This document shows, piece after piece, positions 41,088-50,853 of a DNA stretch of 64,000 nt. Source of the DNA: an uncultured Bacteroidia bacterium. GTDB taxonomy: Bacteria > Bacteroidota > Bacteroidia > Bacteroidales > UBA932. Below the pieces are notes generated by a model that was not told the DNA's origin, did no database searches, and saw nothing but the letters and a program-made list of their open reading frames with translations. Position 1 is the first letter of the stretch. The number at the start of each line of letters is the position of its first letter. Position numbers and translations under genes: made by a program. The stretch spans positions 62,001-126,000 of the forward strand of contig CACWOH010000004.1 of NCBI GenBank assembly GCA_902762435.1. Direction: 5' to 3'.

Positions 41088-41507
41088 ATGATACGCTATT
41101 TCCAGGAAGATATCCGTTTTGACCTGAAACAGAAGATGCAGAACAACCGCTGGCTCAAGATGGTAGCCGGCAGCGAGATGCGCCGCATCGGTGCGGTCAA
41201 CATCATCTTCTGCTCGGACAACTACATCCTCGACGTCAACATGCGTTATCTCCAGCACGACTATTTCACGGACATCATTACCTTCGACTATTGCGAGAAG
41301 GACATCCTTTCCGGTGACCTGTTCATCAGCATCGACTCCGTTCGGGAGAACGCCCTGTTCTACGGCGTCCCGTTCGCGGACGAACTGGACCGGGTGATGG
41401 TGCACGGTCTGCTCCACCTGATCGGCTACGACGACCACACCGAGGAGCAGATCCGGGAAATGCGCGCCAAAGAGGATTACTATCTGCAGATGAAAGCCGC
41501 GCTGTGA
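41088..41507 (+). CDS. ybeY: rRNA maturation endoribonuclease YbeY
   Basis: A 139-residue zinc-dependent RNase needed for 16S rRNA 3'-end maturation and ribosome quality control. The metal-binding motif [12 protein letters not shown] is near the C-terminus, preceded by [21 protein letters not shown] chose the ATG at 41088 ([11 protein letters not shown]); a TTG two codons earlier is possible but less likely. Its stop overlaps the mnmG start by one base (TGATG), so the two are translationally coupled. The N-terminus is short for the family but the catalytic part is complete. Confidence 0.95.
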
Positions 41508-43369
41508 TGCAGGACCGCTATGATGTCATCGTCGTCGGGGGAGGGCACGCCGGATGCGAGGCCGCGATGGCTGCGTCCCGGCTCGGCTCGTCCGTCCTCC
41601 TCGTTTCGATGGACATGCTGGGGTTTGCCCGGATGTCTTGCAATCCGGCGATGGGTGGAATCGCCAAGGGACAGATCGTCCGGGAGATCGACGCGCTGGG
41701 CGGGTGGAGCGGAATCGTCACCGACCGCACCACCCTGCAGTTCCGGATGCTCAACCGCTCGAAAGGGCCTGCGATGTGGAGCCCCCGGGCGCAGTGCGAT
41801 AAAATCCAGTTTTCGCTGGAATGGCGGAAAATCCTCGAAAGTGATTGTAAATTAGATATTTACGTGGATTCTGCGGTCAGTTTTCTCGTTGAGAATTCAA
41901 AAATCTGCGGCATCCGTACGAATACCGGCGCAATTTTCAAGTCTCAAGCGGTTATCCTGACCGCCGGAACCTTCCTGGGCGGCAAACTTTTCATCGGCCG
42001 TCACGAGATGGAAGGGGGCCGGCTCGGCGAGCCTGCCTCGCACGGACTGACCGCCCAGCTCCGCGAGATGGGAATCGTCTCCGACCGGATGAAGACCGGG
42101 ACCCCGCCGCGCATCGACATCTCCTCCGTCGATACGTCCCGGCTCGAACTCCAGTCCGGCGACCCGGATCCGGCGCGCTTCTCTTTCCTGCCGGAGCCCT
42201 CGGCTGTGCAGGCGCCCGGCAGCAGCCAGATGTCCTGCTACATCCTGCACACCAACGAACGGGTGCACGAAATCCTGCGCGGGGGGTTCGACGAGTCTCC
42301 GCTCTTCACCGGGATGATCCACGGCCGCGGACCGCGCTACTGCCCGAGCATCGAAGACAAGCTGCGCGTCTTTCCGGAGAACGACGCTCACCAGCTTTTC
42401 CTGGAGCCGGAAGGCCGCTGGACGAACGAATACTATCTGCAGGGATTCTCTTCATCACTGCCCCTGCAGGTCCAGCTGGATGCGCTGCACGCCATATGCG
42501 GGCTGGAGGAAGTCCGCATCTTCCGTCCGGCCTACGCCGTCGAATATGACTACTTCGACCCGACGCAGCTTCGGCCCACCCTGGAGCTTAAAAGCATCGA
42601 AAACCTCTTCCTGGCCGGCCAGGTCAACGGCACGACCGGCTACGAGGAAGCGGCGGCACAGGGAATCGTGGCCGGCATCAACGCCCACCTCAAGGTCCGG
42701 GAAAAGGAGCCGTTCATCCTCCGGCGGGACCAGTCTTACATTGGTGTCCTCATCGACGACCTGGTGACGAAGGGCGTAGACGAGCCCTACCGGATGTTCA
42801 CGTCCCGGGCCGAATATCGCATCCTTCTGCGGCAGGACAACGCCGACCGCCGCCTGACCGCCCTGTCCCACGACATCGGCCTGGCCGACGAACGGCGCTA
42901 CGCCGCGATGATGCGGAAGTACGAACAGGTGGATGAACTGGAGGCATTCTGCCGGAACAAGAACCTGACGGCCCGGCAGGCGAATCCGTACCTGGTTTCC
43001 GTCGGTTCCAGCGAAATCACGGAGTCCAGGAAGATCTCGGACCTGGCCACGCGCCCGGAGGTGGAACTGGCCGAACTGTTGAAAATCGTTCCACGTGGAA
43101 CGCAGGATAGGGAAGTGGTAGAGAGTGTCGAGATCTCGCTGCGTTACCGGGGTTACATCGACCGGGAGCTTGCCATGGCGGAGAAGCTGCAGCGGCTGGA
43201 AGATTTGAAGATCCCGGAAGATTTCGACTTCGACCGGGTAAGCGGGCTGACCATTGAATGCCGCCAGAAACTCGCCCGCTACAAGCCGCGCACCATCGCC
43301 CAGGCGTCCCGGATTTCCGGAGTCTCGCCTGCCGATGTGTCCGTACTGCTGGTCTGGTTCGGGCGCTGA
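41507..43369 (+). CDS. mnmG: tRNA uridine-5-carboxymethylaminomethyl modification enzyme MnmG (GidA)
   Basis: A 620-residue FAD enzyme that, with MnmE, modifies U34 of certain tRNAs. The FAD motif [18 protein letters not shown] is at residues 7-24; [27 protein letters not shown]-like [29 protein letters not shown] and [17 protein letters not shown] are diagnostic. The C-terminal helical domain is complete ([18 protein letters not shown]). The ATG at 41507 overlaps the ybeY stop; a GTG one codon earlier is less likely. A perfect parS-like palindrome is embedded at codons for IVPRGTQ (43087-43102). The stop is 2 bases from the end of convergent ruvA. Confidence 0.97.
43087..43102. promoter_or_regulatory. 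parS-like ParB-binding palindrome inside mnmG
   Basis: CGTTCCACGTGGAACG is a perfect 16-bp palindrome. Its inner 14 bases are identical to the core of the Bacillus subtilis parS site (TGTTCCACGTGGAACA). It lies within the mnmG coding sequence and uses CCA, CGT and GGA codons, which look uncommon in this GC-rich gene. A chance exact match to the 14-mer in 64 kb is expected well below 0.001 times. Confidence 0.7.
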
Positions 43370-43371
43370 AG

Positions 43372-43965
43372 CTAGAGCCGCTGGAGGGCGGCCTTGATGA
43401 GTTCTTCTACACTGGCCTGCGGATTCGTTTTCAGAATGGCCTGAAGGGCCTTGTTGATGTTGGGTTTGGTGAAGCCGAGCATCTGGAGCGCCGTCGCCGC
43501 TTCGTCGGCCGCCGCGTTGGGCTCGCTGCGGAGCAGCACGCCCGGCTCCGCGCCATCGCCTTTCACGATCTTGTCTTTCAGTTCCAGCACCATGCGCTGG
43601 GCGGTCTTCAGCCCGATGCCCTTGACGGACTTCAGGCGGGCGACGTCTTCGGCGAGGATGGCGTTCCGGAGTTCTTCCGCCGTCAGGGACGAGAGGACCA
43701 TCCGGGCGGACGCGGCGCCCATGCCGGAGACGCTCGTGATCTGGCGGAAGAGTTCCCGCTCGTCGCGCGTGGCGAAGCCGTAGTCCACGTCGGTGCCGTC
43801 GCGCGGATTGAGCTGGCGTTGGACGAAGACCGTGGCGCTGTCTTTTCCGTTCAGGACATCGTAGGTCTGCAGGGAGATTTCCAGGGCGTATCCGATGCCC
43901 TGGTTGTCGATCACCGCCATCGTGGGCGTAAGGGTGACAAGTTTTCCGGAAATGTAATCTATCAT
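43372..43965 (-). CDS. ruvA: Holliday junction branch migration protein RuvA
   Basis: A 197-residue protein that binds four-way junctions and loads RuvB. The N-terminal OB-fold begins MIDYISGKLVTLTPTMAVID; the helix-hairpin-helix region contains FRQITSVSGMGAASARMVLSS and LKSVKGIGLKTAQRMVLELKDKI; the C-terminal domain III is PNINKALQAILKTNPQASVEEL. The length matches the family (about 195-205). It is convergent with mnmG (2-base gap) and divergent from sufS, with its own -7 element 19 bases upstream. Confidence 0.96.
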   Translation of the reverse strand: MIDYISGKLVTLTPTMAVIDNQGIGYALEISLQTYDVLNGKDSATVFVQRQLNPRDGTDVDYGFATRDERELFRQITSVSGMGAASARMVLSSLTAEELRNAILAEDVARLKSVKGIGLKTAQRMVLELKDKIVKGDGAEPGVLLRSEPNAAADEAATALQMLGFTKPNINKALQAILKTNPQASVEELIKAALQRL

Positions 43966-43984
43966 ATGAACGCTACTCGTTTCA

Positions 43985-43992
43985 CAAAAATA
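43985..43992 (-). promoter_or_regulatory. -7 promoter element for ruvA
   Basis: On the minus strand this reads TATTTTTG, matching TAnnTTTG. It is separated by 4 bases from the divergent sufS element. Confidence 0.6.
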
Positions 43993-43996
43993 ATGT

Positions 43997-44004
43997 TAAA
44001 TTTG
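43997..44004 (+). promoter_or_regulatory. -7 promoter element for sufS
   Basis: TAAATTTG matches TAnnTTTG and ends only 9 bases before the sufS ATG, so the transcript would be essentially leaderless. Confidence 0.65.
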
Positions 44005-44013
44005 CATTTCTCT

Positions 44014-45243
44014 ATGACACAGGTCGAAAAAATACGGAAGGAGTTCCCCGAACTGGGGGAGCGCGTGTATGGCAAGCCGCTTGTCTATCTGGACAATGCG
44101 GCCACCTCGCAGCGCCCGCTTTCCGTCATCCGGAAGTGGACCGAGATGTCGGAGAAATACAACGCCAACCTGCACCGCGCCGTGCACCGCATCGCCGACC
44201 TGGCCACAGCCGAATACGAAGCCACGCGCGACGCCGTCCGGGAATACCTGAACGCTGCCGCCCGGGAAGAGATCATCTTCACCGCCGGCGCAACCGCCTC
44301 CATCAACCTGGTCGCTTTCAGTTTCGGTGAAGCGTTCGTCCGCGCGGGCGACGAGATCGTCGTGAGCGAGGCGGAGCACCATTCCAATATCGTTCCCTGG
44401 CAGATGCTCTGCGAGCGGAAAGGCGCCAAGTTGAAGGTCCTGCCGGTGGACGACCGGGGCTGCCTCCGCCTCGAGAGCCTGGACGCCCTGCTTACCCCGC
44501 GAACGAAACTGCTCTGCGTCGCCCATATCTCCAACGTGCTGGGCATCGTCAATCCGGTCCGGGAGATTGTCCGGGCCTGTCATGCGCGGAACTGCGCCGT
44601 CCTCGTGGACGGTGCGCAGGGCATCGTGCACGAGCGGGTGGACGTTCAGGACCTGGGCTGTGACTTCTACGTCTTTTCCGGACACAAGGTCTATGCGGCA
44701 CCGGGTACGGGCGTGCTCTACGGCCGTCGCGAACTGCTGGAACAGATGCCCCCCTATATGGGCGGCGGCGAGATGATCGGCACGGTCCGCTGGTCCGGAA
44801 CGACCTATGCTCCGCTGCCCCAGAAGTTCGAAGCCGGCACGCAGAACCTGGCCGGAACCCCCACGCTGCGTCCCGCGCTCGAATGGGCGACCGCCCTGCG
44901 CGAATCGGCCGTCCAAGAGAATCTTGAAACAATTAAATTGTTTATACTCAATAAATTACGTTCCGATAAGCGCTTCCGTCTCTATGGCGACCCGGAGGAC
45001 GGAAAGGACAAGATTCCCCTATTTTCGTTCTCCGTGGAACATTTGCACCACGAAGACCTGGCACTTATTTTGGACAAGATGGGTATCGCCGTCCGCTCCG
45101 GACAGATGTGCGCGGAACCGCTGATGGACCGCTTCGGCGTGACGGGTATGCTCCGCGTCTCCTTCGCGCCGTACAACACGCTGCAGGAGGCGGAATATTT
45201 GATGGAATCGCTCGAACGGGCGATCAAAATGCTGGAAAGATGA
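44014..45243 (+). CDS. sufS: SufS-type cysteine desulfurase
   Basis: A 409-residue PLP enzyme that takes sulfur from cysteine for Fe-S cluster assembly. The start at 44014 (MTQVEKIRKEFPEL) matches the normal SufS N-terminus; the long open frame upstream overlaps ruvA and mnmG and is not coding. PLP contacts are visible as SEAEHHSNIVPWQ, VLVDGAQG and FSGHK with Lys225. The active-site loop is RSGQMCAEPLM with Cys366, where many homologues read RxGHHCA. sufE overlaps its stop by 4 bases. The scaffold genes sufB, sufC and sufD are not in the window. Confidence 0.95.
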   Translation: MTQVEKIRKEFPELGERVYGKPLVYLDNAATSQRPLSVIRKWTEMSEKYNANLHRAVHRIADLATAEYEATRDAVREYLNAAAREEIIFTAGATASINLVAFSFGEAFVRAGDEIVVSEAEHHSNIVPWQMLCERKGAKLKVLPVDDRGCLRLESLDALLTPRTKLLCVAHISNVLGIVNPVREIVRACHARNCAVLVDGAQGIVHERVDVQDLGCDFYVFSGHKVYAAPGTGVLYGRRELLEQMPPYMGGGEMIGTVRWSGTTYAPLPQKFEAGTQNLAGTPTLRPALEWATALRESAVQENLETIKLFILNKLRSDKRFRLYGDPEDGKDKIPLFSFSVEHLHHEDLALILDKMGIAVRSGQMCAEPLMDRFGVTGMLRVSFAPYNTLQEAEYLMESLERAIKMLER

Positions 45244-45653
45244 AAACATTGCAGGAAGCCCAGGCAGAGGTCATCGAGGACTTCTCGATGTACGACGAAT
45301 GGCTGGACAAATATGAGTATCTGATCGACCTCGGCCACCGGCTCCCCCCGTTCCCGGAGGAGCTGAAGACCGAAGACCGCCTCATCAAGGGCTGCCAGTC
45401 CCGGGTGTGGCTGGACACGACCGCCGAAGACGGCCGGCTGTTTTTCCGCGCCGACAGCGACGCCATCATCACCAAGGGCATCATCTCCCTGCTGATCGGC
45501 GTCTATTCCGGGCGTACGGCCCGCGAGATCGCGGAGGACGACTTCTCTTTCATCGAGCGGCTCGGCCTGCGCGAAAACCTGTCCCCGACGCGGGCGAACG
45601 GCCTCGCTTCGATGGTCGCCACCATCCGTGAAACGGCTAAAAACCACGTGTGA
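45240..45653 (+). CDS. sufE: SufE sulfur acceptor protein
   Basis: A 137-residue partner that accepts persulfide sulfur from SufS and passes it to the SufBCD scaffold. The acceptor Cys52 is in DRLIKGCQSRVWL, the family signature, and IITKGIISLLIGVYSGRTAREI and SPTRANGLASMV follow. I chose the ATG at 45240 that overlaps the sufS stop (ATGA); the longer upstream frame lies inside sufS. The next gene, a DUF59 protein, starts one base after the stop. Confidence 0.95.
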   Translation: MKTLQEAQAEVIEDFSMYDEWLDKYEYLIDLGHRLPPFPEELKTEDRLIKGCQSRVWLDTTAEDGRLFFRADSDAIITKGIISLLIGVYSGRTAREIAEDDFSFIERLGLRENLSPTRANGLASMVATIRETAKNHV

Positions 45654-45654
45654 G

Positions 45655-46011
45655 ATGGATCCGAATGAAGTTTTGAACCCCGAGGACGTCAAGGAGCTCA
45701 CCCCGCTTTACGAAGCCGTGGTGCTGGCCCTCAAGCAGGTCTATGATCCGGAAATCCCGGTGAACGTCTATGACCTCGGCCTGATTTACGAGCTCCATAT
45801 CAACAAGGAGCACGAAGTGTCCATCAAGATGACCTTCACCGCCCCCAACTGCCCGATGGCGGACGTGGTGATCGGCGAGGTGAAACACAGCGTGGAAAAC
45901 ACCCCCGGCGTCGCCAAATGCGATATCGAGCTGGTCTGGGAGCCCGCCTGGGATTCCAGCCTGCTCTCCGACGAGGCCCGCGTGGCCCTGGGTTGGGACC
46001 CGGAACTCTAG
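45655..46011 (+). CDS. DUF59/MIP18 family (SufT-like) iron-sulfur assembly factor
   Basis: A 118-residue protein of the MIP18/DUF59 family, which helps maturation of Fe-S proteins. The family core is YDPEIPVNVYDLGLIYEL (about 30-47) and IKMTFTAPNCPMADVV with the conserved Cys. It starts one base after the sufE stop and is followed after 2 bases by folK. The context supports a SufT-like role. The start MDPNEVLNP is chosen because an earlier in-frame Met lies inside sufE. Confidence 0.92.
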   Translation: MDPNEVLNPEDVKELTPLYEAVVLALKQVYDPEIPVNVYDLGLIYELHINKEHEVSIKMTFTAPNCPMADVVIGEVKHSVENTPGVAKCDIELVWEPAWDSSLLSDEARVALGWDPEL

Positions 46012-46013
46012 CG

Positions 46014-46448
46014 ATGAAAGCGCAGGACGTCTATCTTTCCCTCGGATCCAACCAAGGCGACCGACAGGCCCGGATCGACGAGGCGCTCCGGCGCCTGGAC
46101 AAGGCCGTCGGGCGGCCGTACGACGCCCTTTCTTCCGTCATCGAGACGCCCGCGTGGGGCTTTGACGGCCCGCCTTTCCTGAATTGCGTCGTGCGTTACC
46201 GGACCGCACGCCGGCCGGAGACGCTGCTGAGAATCTGCAAGCGGATCGAACGGGCGATGGGCCGCCGCGGAGCGCCGGAATACGGCGACGACGGCCGGCG
46301 GATCTACCGCGACCGCCCCATCGACATCGACATCCTGCTGTATGGCGACCTGAGCGTGGATACGCCCGAACTGACAATCCCGCACCCCCTGATGCGCGAG
46401 CGCGAGTTCGTTATGCGGCCGCTCGCGGAGATTTTTCCGCAGAAATGA
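46014..46448 (+). CDS. folK: Dihydropterin pyrophosphokinase (HPPK)
   Basis: A 144-residue cytoplasmic enzyme that transfers pyrophosphate from ATP to 6-hydroxymethyl-dihydropterin in folate synthesis. The family signatures are LSLGSNQGDRQARI (6-19), ETPAWGFDGPPFLNCVV, and RDRPIDIDILLYGD with the two metal-binding Asp residues, then IPHPLMREREFVMRPLAEI. It is a stand-alone HPPK, not fused to DHPS. It ends 1 base before the glyS promoter element and probably closes the suf-folK unit. Confidence 0.95.
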   Translation: MKAQDVYLSLGSNQGDRQARIDEALRRLDKAVGRPYDALSSVIETPAWGFDGPPFLNCVVRYRTARRPETLLRICKRIERAMGRRGAPEYGDDGRRIYRDRPIDIDILLYGDLSVDTPELTIPHPLMREREFVMRPLAEIFPQK

Positions 46449-46449
46449 T

Positions 46450-46457
46450 TACCTTTG
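46450..46457 (+). promoter_or_regulatory. -7 promoter element for glyS
   Basis: TACCTTTG matches TAnnTTTG, 29 bases before the glyS ATG and directly after the folK stop. Confidence 0.6.
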
Positions 46458-46486
46458 CCCGATTGAATATTAGTTAGTAACGACAT

Positions 46487-48025
46487 ATGACACAAGAAGA
46501 ACTGTTCAAGGTACTCGTGGCGCACTGCAAGGAGTACGGTTTCATTTTTCCTTCCAGCGAGATCTACGACGGCCTGGCCGCCGTGTATGACTACGGCCAG
46601 ATGGGCGTCGAACTCAAGAACAACATCAAGCAGTACTGGTGGAACGCGATGACCCGCCTGAACGAGAACATCGTGGGCATCGATTCCTGCATCTTCATGC
46701 ACCCCCGCATCTGGGAGGCTTCCGGCCACGTGAGCGCCTTCAACGACCCGCTCATCGACAACAAGGACTCCAAGAAGCGCTACCGCGCCGACGTCCTCAT
46801 CGAGGATTACCTGGGCAAGATCGAGGAGAAGATCAACAAGGAAGTCGAAAAGGGCCGCAAGAAATTCGGCGCCGGCTTCGACGAGGCGCAGTTCCGCGCC
46901 ACCAACCCCAACGTCCTGCGCGAGCAGGCCAAGTGGGACGAGGTACACAACCGCTACGTGGCCGCCGAGCAGGCGTCCGATTTCGCGGAATACCGCCAGA
47001 TCATCATCGACTGCGGCATCGTCTGCCCGATCAGCGGCACCTGCAACTGGACGGAGGTGAGGCAGTTCAACCTGATGTTCAGCACCTCGATGGGCAGCAC
47101 CGCCGACGGCGCCAACACCATCTACCTGCGTCCGGAGACCGCCCAGGGCATCTTCGTGAACTACCTGAACGTCCAGAAGACCGGCCGCATGAAGATCCCC
47201 TTCGGCATCGCCCAGATCGGCAAGGCCTTCCGCAACGAGATCGTCGCCCGCCAGTTCATCTTCCGCATGCGCGAGTTCGAGCAGATGGAGATGCAGTTCT
47301 TCATCAAGCCGGGCACCGAGCTCGACTGGTTCGCCAAATGGAAGGAGAACCGCATGAAATGGCACGTCAACATCGGCATGGGCGCGGAGAACTACCGCTT
47401 CCACGACCACGAGAAGCTGGCCCACTACGCCAACGCCGCCACCGACATCGAGTTCAACTTCCCCTTCGGCTTCAAGGAGCTGGAAGGCATCCACAGCCGC
47501 ACCAACTTCGACCTGGGCAACCACCAGAAGTTCTCCGGAAAGAAGATCGAGTACTTCGACCCCGAGGAAGGCGCCGCCTACACCCCGTACGTGGTCGAGA
47601 CCTCCATCGGCGTGGACCGCATGGTGCTCGCCGTCCTGTCGCATTCCCTGCACGAGGAGCAGCTCGAGAACGGCGAAACCCGCGTCGTGATGAGCATCCC
47701 CGCCCCGCTCGCGCCGGTCAAGGCCGCGGTGCTGCCGCTCGTCAAGAAAGACGGCCTGCCGGAGCTCGCCCAGGAGGTGATGGACCTGCTGAAATACGAC
47801 TTCAACTGCCAGTACGAGGAGAAGGACAGCATCGGCAAGCGCTACCGCCGCCAGGATGCCATCGGCACCCCGTTTTGCATCACCGTGGACCACGAGTCTC
47901 TGAACGACCGCTGCGTGACCGTGCGCGACCGCGACACGATGTCGCAGGAGCGCGTTCCCATCGCGGAACTCCGCAGCCTGATCGACAGCAAGGTCAACCT
48001 GAACAACCTCCTCCGGAACCTCTAG
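46487..48025 (+). CDS. glyS: Glycyl-tRNA synthetase, single-chain (dimeric) type
   Basis: A 512-residue class II synthetase that charges tRNA-Gly. It is the alpha2 eukaryote/archaea-like form found in Bacteroidetes, not the alpha2beta2 bacterial form. Class II motifs are visible: FIFPSSEIYDGLAAVYDYGQMG at the N-terminus, TIYLRPETAQGIFVNY (motif 2 region), FRNEIVARQFIFRMREFEQME, and the C-terminal TPYVVETSIGVDRMVL (motif 3). The anticodon-binding domain ends with VPIAELRSLIDSKVNL. The next gene, a ThiL-like protein, starts 3 bases after the stop. Confidence 0.97.
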   Translation: MTQEELFKVLVAHCKEYGFIFPSSEIYDGLAAVYDYGQMGVELKNNIKQYWWNAMTRLNENIVGIDSCIFMHPRIWEASGHVSAFNDPLIDNKDSKKRYRADVLIEDYLGKIEEKINKEVEKGRKKFGAGFDEAQFRATNPNVLREQAKWDEVHNRYVAAEQASDFAEYRQIIIDCGIVCPISGTCNWTEVRQFNLMFSTSMGSTADGANTIYLRPETAQGIFVNYLNVQKTGRMKIPFGIAQIGKAFRNEIVARQFIFRMREFEQMEMQFFIKPGTELDWFAKWKENRMKWHVNIGMGAENYRFHDHEKLAHYANAATDIEFNFPFGFKELEGIHSRTNFDLGNHQKFSGKKIEYFDPEEGAAYTPYVVETSIGVDRMVLAVLSHSLHEEQLENGETRVVMSIPAPLAPVKAAVLPLVKKDGLPELAQEVMDLLKYDFNCQYEEKDSIGKRYRRQDAIGTPFCITVDHESLNDRCVTVRDRDTMSQERVPIAELRSLIDSKVNLNNLLRNL

Positions 48026-48028
48026 CCG

Positions 48029-49039
48029 ATGACGCAGACCTTCTCGGACCTGGGCCGCATCGAGGCGGTCCGGCAGCTCTTCGAGGGCACGCCCTGGCGC
48101 CCCTTCGAAGAGCCGCTGTGGTTTACCGCGAAGCCGCAGGAATGCATCACCACGGCCTCCGGCCTGCTGCTGGAGGGCATCGACTTCGACCTGGTCTATT
48201 TCCCGCTGAAGCACCTCGGCCGCAAGGCCGTGCTGAAGGTCACGGGAGAGTTGTACGCCGTTCTGGCGCAGCCCGAAACGCTTTCCGTGCAGCTCGGGGT
48301 TTCCGCGAAACTGGATTTCCCGCAGGTGCAGGAACTCTGGAGCGGTCTTTCCGCGGCCGCGCAGGAGTACGGCTACAAGCACCTCAGCCTGGACCTGCAG
48401 CCCTCGCGCAACGGCCTTACCGTGGCCCTGTCGGCCACCGGCCGCCACAGCGCCGCCGTTTCGGCCGCCCGCCCCGTGGCGCAGAGCAAGGACCTGATCT
48501 GCGTGTCGGGTGCCCTGGGGGCCGCTTTCCTGGGCCTGCAGGTGCTCGAGCGCGAACGCCTCAAATTTGAGAAGGGCTCCACCGACCAGGCCGCCCTGGA
48601 GCAGTACAGGATGCTCGTCGGAGCCTATCTGAAGCCCGAGCTGGGTACGGACCTGCCCGCGCGGCTCGCGGACGGGAAGATATCCCCTTCGTACGGTTAC
48701 TTCGTTACCCGCGGCCTCGCGGACGCGCTCCTGCGCCTGCGGCGCGACAGCGGGCTCGGCGCCAAGGTCTATGCCGACAAGATTCCTTTCGAGGGAGGCA
48801 GTTTCGACCTGGGCCGGGAGCTCAACCTGGACCCCGTTTCCGCCGCGATGAACGGCGGCGAGGATTACCAGCTGCTCTACGTGGTTCCGATCGCGCAGTT
48901 CGAGCGTTTCCGCAAGGATTTCCAGACCTTCGACATCATCGGCCACCTGGCGCAGCCCGAAGTGGGCGCTGTCCTGGTCTCGCCCGACGGGCTGGAACAC
49001 CCCGTTTCGGCCCAAGGGTGGACGGATCCTAAACAGTAG
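48029..49039 (+). CDS. Catalytically degenerate ThiL/AIR-synthase-like protein
   Basis: A 336-residue homologue of thiamine-monophosphate kinase. Similarity to Bacteroidetes ThiL is clear in LLLEGIDFDLVYFPLKHLG (46-64), DLICVSGALGAAFLGLQVLERER (155-177), MNGGEDYQLLYVVPIA (274-289) and IIGHLAQPEVGAVLV. But the residues that bind Mg-ATP and substrate are gone. The GxGDDxA block is replaced around 25-43, the STD Asp reads TTAS, the VNxSD motif reads LKVTGELYAV, GGDTT reads LDLQPS and DxSDGL reads FVTRGLADAL. The frame is intact over its full length, so this looks like a maintained pseudoenzyme. It is coupled to glyS by a 3-base gap. A regulatory, scaffold or new enzymatic role is possible. Confidence 0.85.
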   Translation: MTQTFSDLGRIEAVRQLFEGTPWRPFEEPLWFTAKPQECITTASGLLLEGIDFDLVYFPLKHLGRKAVLKVTGELYAVLAQPETLSVQLGVSAKLDFPQVQELWSGLSAAAQEYGYKHLSLDLQPSRNGLTVALSATGRHSAAVSAARPVAQSKDLICVSGALGAAFLGLQVLERERLKFEKGSTDQAALEQYRMLVGAYLKPELGTDLPARLADGKISPSYGYFVTRGLADALLRLRRDSGLGAKVYADKIPFEGGSFDLGRELNLDPVSAAMNGGEDYQLLYVVPIAQFERFRKDFQTFDIIGHLAQPEVGAVLVSPDGLEHPVSAQGWTDPKQ

Positions 49040-49052
49040 ATTCCGTCAAAGA

Positions 49053-49085
49053 AAAACGGCTCCGGAGCACTTCCGGAGCCGTTTT
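49053..49085. terminator. Bidirectional terminator between the ThiL-like gene and the Cthe_2159-like gene
   Basis: AAAACGGCTCCGGA (49053-49066) pairs perfectly with TCCGGAGCCGTTTT (49072-49085) around a 5-base loop. The A and T ends allow termination in both directions between these convergent genes. Confidence 0.93.
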
Positions 49086-49086
49086 C

Positions 49087-50853
49087 TTATCTGCCGGGGC
49101 CTCCCCCGGGCGCGCCGCCGCCCGGCCTGCCCATGCCGCCGGCATAGGCGGACAGGGTAACGGCACTGCCGCCGGAGACGCTGCCGTCCACGGCCCCCAG
49201 GCCGTCGAACAGGGACGTTCCGCCGCTGACGGACACGCCGGATTTCAGGGCCGGCGTCCCGGCCGTCGAGACGACCAGGGAGTTGCCGCCGCGTTCCGGG
49301 GTCTTGAAAGCAAAGACGGGCTTGTCGTCCGCGTAGAGGGCGTACCAGGTGTCCTTGTTCCAATCGGCCTGGTAGCAGGCCTGGGAGAGGTTCGCGCCGT
49401 TTTCCAGGCCGCCGATGGCGACGAGGGTCCCCCCGATGACGTACAGTTTGTAGCCGTCCTCGGTATTGGCGTCGATGGCGACTTCGGGAGAGCCGGATCC
49501 GACGGCATAGACGATACCGCCCTGGATGTAACAGTTCCCGTTGGCGTCGATGCCGTCGTTACCCGTTGACAGGGCGCACACCCGGCCGCCGGAGACGATC
49601 AGGTTGCCGCCCGCGTTGATGGCATCGTCGGAGGAATTGCCGTAAATCTCGCCCCCCGTGATGACCATATCGCCCTTGGCCTCGATGGCCTCGTGGTTCT
49701 TGGCGGAAACCCGGACGGAGCCGCCCGTAATGACGAGTTTCCCGTCGAATTTGATGCCTTTGGCGGACTTGGTGGTATCCTCCAGGCCGGCGGCGTCCGC
49801 GCCCGTCACCTCGTAATTGGTGCCCGTTACGCTGATCTCCAGGGTCCCCCCGGAAATCAGGGCGTCGACATCGCCGCTGATGCCTTTGCCTCCCTGGCCG
49901 CTGTTCGTCACGACGAGCGAGCCGCCGGTCATCACGAAGGTGGTGTCGGCCTTGATGCCGGACGAGGCGGACAGGTCGGTCAGGTCGGAGTCGTCCACGC
50001 CGCCGGAAACCGACAGGCGGGTTTTCCCTCCGTCGATGCGCACCGTACCGTCGGATGTGATGGCTTTCTTGCCGTCCTTGCTGACCGTTACGTCCAGGGA
50101 GCCGCCCGTCAGCACGACGGCGTCCTTTCCGCGGATGCCGTGCCCGCCGGTCGAGGAGACGGTCAGGGTCGGGCCGTCCAGTACGCGGACGTAATCGTCG
50201 GAGGTGATGCCGGCCTTGCCCGTCGCGGTGACGTCCAGGGAACCTGAACCGCTGAAAATCAGCTGCGCCTCGCTGAAGAAGGCCGCCTTCTCGTCCTCGT
50301 CGTCCGGGGTGTCGGTGTACTTCTTGCCGTCGGCGAGCTTGTTCCTGCCTTCCAGCACGACGAACGTGCGTTTCTTGTTCTGGTTGTTGATGGCGGCGCC
50401 GTTGGGGTTGGTCAGGTCCAGGTCTTTCAGCACCAGGGCCTGTTTCTTGTTGCCGTAGATCTTGAAGAAGCCGTCGGAAGCCGTCCCGGAGAGTTCGTAA
50501 CGGATGATTTCCCCGGTGTCGGTGTTGTCGACGGTCACATCGTTCCCGGACACGGACACGATGCCGGTTTCGTCTCCGGTCACGGTGGCGCCGGCGCTGC
50601 CGAAAACGATGGAAATCGTACGTGCGAAGGTGGTGTTGGCAATATCGTCATCGGAGTCTTCGAGAACGAAATTGTCGGTAATGGAGGTGTCCGGCGTCAC
50701 CGGATCGACCGACGTTGTCGTCGTGCCCGCATTGTTCTGTCCGGGCGGGAAGCCACCCCCGGGGCCGTTCAGCGAAAGGGGGTCGTCGTCGCTGCAGGCG
50801 CTGCAAAGGAGGAGCAGCAGCGGCAGCTGCAAAAGATAGATTTTCGGTTTCAT
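49087..50853 (-). CDS. Cthe_2159-like beta-helix carbohydrate-binding lipoprotein
   Basis: A 588-residue surface or periplasmic lipoprotein (LLCSAC, Cys20). After a low-complexity, Thr/Ser/Pro-rich linker (about 25-60), residues of about 65-520 are short repeating beta-strand turns rich in Gly, Asp and Ser, such as ISGGTLEISVTG, ITGGSVRVSAKNHEAIEAKG and ITGGEIYGNSSDDAINAGG. This is the pattern of Cthe_2159, a polygalacturonate-binding beta-helix that coordinates calcium. The C-terminus is a Gly/Pro-rich tail (GGMGRPGGGAPGGGPGR). Pectin binding is an inference from that relative; no lyase catalytic set is recognisable. It faces dnaE across a 147-base divergent gap. Confidence 0.83.
   Translation of the reverse strand: MKPKIYLLQLPLLLLLCSACSDDDPLSLNGPGGGFPPGQNNAGTTTTSVDPVTPDTSITDNFVLEDSDDDIANTTFARTISIVFGSAGATVTGDETGIVSVSGNDVTVDNTDTGEIIRYELSGTASDGFFKIYGNKKQALVLKDLDLTNPNGAAINNQNKKRTFVVLEGRNKLADGKKYTDTPDDEDEKAAFFSEAQLIFSGSGSLDVTATGKAGITSDDYVRVLDGPTLTVSSTGGHGIRGKDAVVLTGGSLDVTVSKDGKKAITSDGTVRIDGGKTRLSVSGGVDDSDLTDLSASSGIKADTTFVMTGGSLVVTNSGQGGKGISGDVDALISGGTLEISVTGTNYEVTGADAAGLEDTTKSAKGIKFDGKLVITGGSVRVSAKNHEAIEAKGDMVITGGEIYGNSSDDAINAGGNLIVSGGRVCALSTGNDGIDANGNCYIQGGIVYAVGSGSPEVAIDANTEDGYKLYVIGGTLVAIGGLENGANLSQACYQADWNKDTWYALYADDKPVFAFKTPERGGNSLVVSTAGTPALKSGVSVSGGTSLFDGLGAVDGSVSGGSAVTLSAYAGGMGRPGGGAPGGGPGR

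Follow-up and report, generated by a model that had tools for sequence, protein, structure and literature searches.

A motif-less homologue of thiamine-monophosphate kinase maintained in a Bacteroidales family is probably a non-catalytic pseudoenzyme

ThiL, the thiamine-monophosphate (TMP) kinase, is the closest described relative of the protein considered here. In the ThiL of P. aeruginosa, Asp30, Asp47, Asp75, and Asp211 are strictly conserved metal ligands, Asp122 is an additional metal ligand, Gly121 and Thr123 contact the ribose and the adenine, and His54 contacts TMP (PMC13254938). A second source locates the active site at the dimer interface and also describes a GDD loop (PMC6416309). 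By title and abstract opening, no description of a motif-less ThiL was found among the matches listed from the open-licence PMC literature. We analyzed an open reading frame in a 64,000-nucleotide stretch of DNA (the window) from an uncultured Bacteroidales genome. A first-pass annotation had regarded it as a ThiL homologue that has lost all its catalytic motifs and is either a maintained pseudoenzyme or a new activity.

The frame, which we call pThiL, starts with an ATG at 48029, ends with a stop codon at 49037-49039, and contains no internal stops, so that the intact frame and the 3-base spacing from glyS noted at first pass are both correct (Table 1). Its relatedness to ThiL is far above chance. 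pThiL matches the NCBIfam model TIGR01379 (thiL) with an E value of 3.2e-35 and 121.6 bits, which is below the curated cut-off of 184.15, a cut-off that is an unsafe test for ThiL because motif-poor copies from two other families (f2 and f75) reach 221 to 239 bits. Of the two Pfam models for the AIR synthase-related superfamily, PF00586 is matched with 25.7 bits, over its gathering score of 24, and PF02769 with 14.1 bits, under its gathering score of 23.1. The AlphaFold2 model of pThiL has a mean pLDDT of 92.1, and in a Foldseek search with this model, ranks 1 to 17 were all ThiL (best E value 5.8e-25), in agreement with the assignment by fold in the first-pass annotation; the top matches of a PDB sequence search were likewise ThiL structures. 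pThiL shares with ThiL (PDB 8yks, 5cm7, and 3c9r) the fold, with TM-scores of about 0.7 to 0.85, the GGEDY motif, and many structural glycines, and graded relatives show common descent. Unlike ThiL, however, pThiL scores below the curated value, is without the GDD, STD, NxSD, and SDG motifs, has GGDT cut down to its Asp, and carries an Asp at the equivalent of His54; its genomes also match another thiamine pyrophosphate (TPP)-forming enzyme. In the same superfamily, SEPHS1 is a non-catalytic relative. It appeared in the Foldseek list as part of Zincore (PDB 9hjt), a complex with another job, but it is a eukaryotic selenophosphate-synthetase homologue and its E value was only 3.7e-12.

Table 1. 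Features of the pThiL locus in the window; residue numbers of P. aeruginosa ThiL are those given in PMC13254938
Feature	Position	Strand	Basis or remark
glyS (glycyl-tRNA synthetase), ending 3 bases 5' of pThiL	46487..48025	+	neighbour in close relatives only
pThiL, motif-less ThiL-fold protein, 336 aa plus stop	48029..49039	+	ORF list, TIGR01379, AlphaFold2, Foldseek
Codon 45 (Gly), place of the STD metal Asp (Asp47)	48161..48163	+	alignment
Residues 49-66, EGIDFDLVYFPLKHLGRK, most conserved stretch of eroded forms	48173..48226	+	conservation
Codon 52, Asp replacing the TMP-contacting His (His54)	48182..48184	+	alignment
Residues 71-74, VTGE replacing NxSD (Asp75)	48239..48250	+	alignment
Residues 120-123, SLDL replacing GGDT; Asp122 equivalent kept	48386..48397	+	alignment
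Residues 225-230, FVTRGL replacing DISDGL (Asp211, Asp214)	48701..48718	+	alignment
Residues 276-281, GGEDYQ, retained from ThiL; GGDD in many relatives	48854..48871	+	alignment
Residues 287-331, C-terminal stretch, variable in intact ThiL, conserved in pThiL	48887..49021	+	conservation
Terminator-like perfect 10-bp inverted repeat, 5-base loop, then TTTT	49057..49081	.	read from sequence

The source genome of the window (G000) comprises 2.3 Mb on 46 contigs and is 95.87% complete. pThiL is the last member of a one-strand run (41507-49039) whose preceding genes we take, from their sequences, to be mnmG, sufS, sufE, a MIP18-type gene, folK, and glyS. The terminator-like repeat lies between pThiL and a convergent gene (49087-50853, minus strand), whose repeat-rich product is 588 aa long and has a lipoprotein-like N-terminus. 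A 903-aa open frame (46304-49015, minus strand) runs antisense to glyS and pThiL and is probably a by-product of the high G+C content.

The motifs were checked column by column against 25 vertically inherited ("vertical") ThiL rows chosen as motif-intact and 18 rows of a second, distant clade (type-2 ThiL). The four metal-binding Asp are kept in 25 of the 25 motif-intact rows, a count that is partly circular because these rows were picked for their motifs, and in all 18 type-2 rows; all four (Asp30, Asp47, Asp75, and Asp211 as named in the P. aeruginosa study) are missing in pThiL. The STD position reads ASG, and the Gly and Thr that contact the ribose and adenine (Gly121 and Thr123 in the same source) are replaced by two Leu. 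Among the metal, ATP, and TMP residues named there, only the equivalent of Asp122 is retained, and pThiL is therefore an enzyme homologue without its catalytic residues, which is one of the marks of a pseudoenzyme. The same state is found in the 30 same-genus rows, where the GDD columns are gaps in all 30, Gly121 is replaced by Leu in 30, Thr123 by Leu in 29, and the His by Asp in 29; at residue 52, Asp occupies 98% of the 49 rows from the crown of family f1, the family of the window genome. Among the order-level rows that reach the motifs, L050 is the only one with several of them lost. The earlier claim that every catalytic motif is replaced thus holds for GDD, STD, NxSD, and SDG, but GGDT keeps its Asp and GGEDY is retained. 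An ordinary ThiL that happens to carry these substitutions can be rejected, since the intact and type-2 rows hold all four metal Asp, and judging from the replaced residues, the TMP kinase function has very probably been lost in the window protein.

The sequence comparisons indicate that pThiL is the vertically inherited Bacteroidales ThiL of family f1. It belongs to the same vertical lineage as motif-intact Bacteroidales ThiL (such as L041 and L187), is 33-39% identical to full-length motif-intact order-level relatives, and has in common with them an FDLxYxPLKHLGYK stretch and an LEREK insertion; unlike pThiL, these proteins keep the catalytic motifs and have a variable C-terminus. The genus of the window is an uncultured gut and rumen group of Bacteroidales, and 80 named near relatives of pThiL show 58-90% identity. 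Orthologues were found in the window genome itself and in 30 of 36 same-genus genomes, the six misses all being less than 90% complete. At an E value of 1e-20, a genus profile matched 139 of 139 f1 genomes that are at least 95% complete, a count that takes in a few motif-intact relatives because the profile finds both kinds, and 100 of 100 same-genus genomes of that completeness, the window genome included, two of which have partial matches (a 60-residue piece only in G204 and a partial copy at a contig edge in G510). Some of the matched rows carry one stop in the matched span, which we took from the frame lengths to be the terminal stop. A local mutant or a sequencing error is out, as the same state occurs genus-wide and in ten further f1-crown genera. 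In the material examined, we found neither close relatives with intact motifs beside a mutated copy here nor these substitutions in most Bacteroidales ThiL of proven activity, the two findings that would have spoken against the first-pass interpretation. The evidence comes mostly from draft, largely metagenome-assembled genomes, in which an absent gene may mean an absent contig.

Across f1, the motifs are lost stepwise. The readable copies, one row per genome (n = 55), hold no metal Asp in 41 cases, one in 9, three in 1, and four in 4. Genera g30, g31, g41, and g43 form the intact end; in g35, STD has lost its Asp and NxSD its Asn; g44, g39, g40, and g42 have one metal Asp each; and g33 and the remaining crown genera have none, with one in a few rows. 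In a tree built without most of the motif columns, g35 and g44 are followed by g39 and g42 and then by the crown (SH-aLRT 100). Genus g40 fell with the other families in this tree (SH-aLRT 89) and inside f1 in a second one. When columns were compared between 26 intact vertical rows and 49 crown rows, both groups being of our own choosing, 48 columns were conserved in both, 35 were lost, 6 had shifted to another fixed residue (including His52 to Asp and Tyr104 to Trp), and 15 were newly conserved.

pThiL is maintained under purifying selection. The median NG86 dN/dS was 0.161 (235 pairs from the window protein and 25 near relatives), compared with 0.165 for folK (138 pairs), 0.157 for dnaE (38 pairs), and 0.069 for glyS (292 pairs), with the count restricted to pairs whose synonymous difference lay between 0.05 and 0.6. 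The dN/dS measurement and the alignment with true ThiL that had been suggested at first pass yielded motif loss together with constraint. The distribution of this constraint has shifted: the identity of residues 287-331 relative to the whole-protein mean is 0.68-fold in intact ThiL, 1.12-fold in the f1 crown, and 1.22-fold in the genus, and residues 49-66, which rank first in the eroded forms, are outranked in intact vertical ThiL by the GGEDY stretch alone. We read the shift of conservation to the C-terminus as a change of function, not decay.

The suggested search for a second, intact thiL was successful in the window genome. G000:C5, on a different contig, scores 320 bits and has every motif intact; this type-2 ThiL shares fold and family with pThiL in the same cell, but it belongs to a distant clade. 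Models for ThiL, thiE, and thiamine pyrophosphokinase (TPK) were searched in 56 f1 genomes. Intact vertical ThiL was present in 4 of the 56, three of which also have TPK. The other 52 comprise 51 with a readable eroded copy and G204. Type-2 ThiL occurs in 13 of these 52, including the window genome, with a TPK match in none of the 13; the remaining 39 all match TPK, 37 of them over the curated cut-off and two (G073 and G087) under it. Because TPK or a separate intact ThiL was matched in all 52 genomes, it is very unlikely that TPP is formed by pThiL. A role as the partner of either enzyme is also out, since pThiL is present where one or the other is missing. Type-2 ThiL requires at least five changes on the pThiL tree. 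In a sign test of type-2 ThiL against TPK, only three independent pairs lay on supported branches; the two enzymes changed in opposite directions in nearly all random pairings, but three pairs were too few for significance (median p of 0.25).

The thiE gene shows a further pattern. In 24 of the 52 genomes, a thiE match and an intact ThiL are both missing, and the eroded protein is still kept there; in 14 f1 genomes, thiE is over its cut-off without an intact ThiL, as it is, below the cut-off, in G153. Type-2 ThiL lies no more than about 2 kb from thiE in six other genomes, and in the three of those six loci whose genes were listed, it stands beside what is, by its N-terminus, presumably a thiD-like gene. 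Four genomes, including that of the window (G000, G170, G185, and G199), have an intact type-2 ThiL, yet thiE and TPK were unmatched in them at an E value of 0.001; missing contigs, a diverged TMP synthase, or TMP uptake may account for this.

Erosion of ThiL is not confined to f1. ThiL was over the cut-off in 282 of 296 genomes of the order, and TPK was matched in 86 of the 296. The motifs were checked in 15 survey genomes, namely the low scorers and the f2 relative G436, so that partial erosion among higher scorers may have been missed. Six of the 15 carry a motif-poor vertical ThiL, five from f2 (genera g2 and g165) and one from f75 (g163), and all six have TPK; in G436 (f2, g180), ThiL is intact and TPK is unmatched. 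In the f2 copies, Asp47 and Asp211 are gone but Asp30 and Asp75 remain, which makes loss of activity less sure for them; of the four metal Asp, the f75 copy holds Asp30 only. All six are over the curated cut-off of TIGR01379, as are the eroded f1 genera g35, g39, g40, and g44 (motif-poor copies L264, L265, L266, L268, L269, and L270, and G070, G074, G075, and G080). The f2 and f75 forms still possess the His that contacts TMP and the two Arg of RQLKPEAR, which have mostly disappeared from the crown.

The trees bear on whether these losses are separate. The f2 copies group with G436 (SH-aLRT 98). With all columns, the AU test did not reject a single clade of eroded copies (p of 0.061); with five of the six motif stretches removed, the sixth motif string having stayed in the alignment, the single clade was rejected (p of 0.006, and 0.003 without the f75 row). 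Certain replacements recur, namely Gly121 to Leu or another bulky residue, Thr123 to Leu, Ile, or Val, and Glu to Asp in GGED. Three genomes of f78 (G258, G383, and G423) have TPK and no ThiL match at an E value of 0.001, and it seems that thiL was lost there outright rather than kept without motifs. Six genomes outside f1 and f78 are also without a ThiL over the cut-off (G238, G266, G268, G334, G393, and G424); their matches read as other superfamily members, a fragment, or an odd copy, G334 holding a C-terminal ThiL piece and G424 an odd 144-bit relative. Among these six, TPK was matched in G393 only, with no TPK match in the other five.

The first-pass annotation also suggested a link to glycyl-tRNA or ribosome physiology through glyS. 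The ThiL-type gene was located in 118 of 121 loci by clustering of neighbours, with genes called using an amino-acid composition score. glyS is the adjacent upstream gene, in the same orientation, at 39 of the 118 loci. All 39 belong to the set of 88 loci from the genus and its named near relatives; at the 30 loci of other genera and families the count is 0, and suf genes or others are the neighbours. The linkage is therefore lineage-specific, and a general connection with translation via glyS was abandoned. A DUF4923-type gene (PF16270; cluster member L074:7016-7642) is directly downstream on the same strand in 41 of the 118 loci, with a spacing of 3 to 22 bases in 30 of the 41. In nine loci of other f1 genera, pThiL is divergent from a SufBD-type gene, and eight of the nine have the same run, which includes an ABC gene read as sufC and a PnuC-family transporter gene, the Pfam match to PF04973 coming from L231 only (L231:3142-5601). 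Immediately upstream of the motif-intact L259 lies, in the same direction, what we take to be a punA-like gene, with a presumed lpxK-like gene beyond it. Because no neighbour is common to all locus groups among the 118 loci, gene context points to no function and supports no glyS-related one. Rfam gave no riboswitch over the gathering score in the window or nearby, the 10 loci searched yielding two tRNAs only, and a TPP riboswitch at pThiL was discarded because the window had no Rfam match.

Taken together, the part of the earlier proposal that stands is the maintained pseudoenzyme, in view of the second intact thiL, the family-wide loss, the retention, and the dN/dS of 0.16. We suggest, with a probability of roughly 0.6, that pThiL is a pseudoenzyme with a binding or regulatory role and no catalysis, and not a new enzyme. 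TPK may have made the ThiL kinase step dispensable. The metal and ATP residues would then have been lost first and the TMP site later, since the f2, f75, and early f1 forms read that way. The ATP-free fold might have been retained to do something other than catalysis. The most likely role would be that of a regulator that binds a protein or a ligand and could work through the newly conserved C-terminal stretch and the conserved stretch of residues 49-66. Against this reading, no neighbour follows pThiL across genera, and no Rfam riboswitch suggests a thiamine role. The retention of Asp122 and GGEDY makes its non-catalytic nature less certain, and the kept role does not extend to the whole order, because the three f78 genomes with TPK show no ThiL match.

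The other possibility raised at first pass, that the ThiL fold now supports another reaction by means of different catalytic residues, appears unlikely to us. The 15 newly conserved positions are as compatible with a new active site as with a binding surface, and these positions, the six shifted ones, and the persistence of GGEDY and Asp122 are what such an enzyme would have in its favour; the residues that contacted ATP are now bulky and aliphatic, however, and no linked pathway gene travels with pThiL. It is still more improbable that pThiL acts as a thiamine-phosphate sensor, with a dead ATP site and a thiamine-phosphate site at which ligand binding and signalling continue. Copies from f2 and f75 would suit this role, as they keep the TMP His and both RQLKPEAR Arg and have lost Asp47, Asp211, and the Gly/Thr contacts to ATP, and the suf cluster divergent from pThiL in other f1 genera mostly holds the PnuC-family gene; but in the f1 crown and the window genus, the His has given way to Asp and the two Arg have mostly gone, and no nearby riboswitch reaches the Rfam gathering score. 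We consider it very improbable that pThiL remains a working TMP kinase whose motifs are unusual, even though TMP would need handling in the 14 f1 genomes with thiE over the cut-off and no intact ThiL: the window copy is without all four metal Asp, all 14 genomes match TPK (under the cut-off in G073 and G087) and could therefore remove the phosphate from TMP and pyrophosphorylate the resulting thiamine, and pThiL is kept even where thiE is unmatched. A gene decaying after a TPK takeover, as the loss of motifs once the kinase step was dispensable and the three f78 genomes might suggest, is contradicted by selection and retention, with matches in 139 of 139 f1 genomes, the low dN/dS, and the higher conservation of the C-terminal stretch compared with true ThiL, and deserves hardly any credence.

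A wider history can be sketched tentatively, although we think it more doubtful than probable. Bacteroidales ThiL may have had an ancestral second function independent of the kinase site, and lineages with TPK (f1, f2, and f75) would have eroded that site at least twice, and probably three times, with parallel replacements while keeping the protein, the f1 crown then building a new conserved surface. We hold this the more cautiously in view of the two metal Asp, out of four, that persist in the f2 copies.

ThiL in the Bacteroidales thus offers a natural series from an intact kinase through half-eroded forms to a motif-less, family-wide protein, which is partly repeated in other families and is associated with a second route to TPP. 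It makes the fate of an enzyme whose reaction became unneeded directly testable. As the motif-poor copies pass TIGR01379, automated annotation would call them thiamine-phosphate kinase, and reconstructions of the B1 pathway in gut Bacteroidales may count dead kinases as live.
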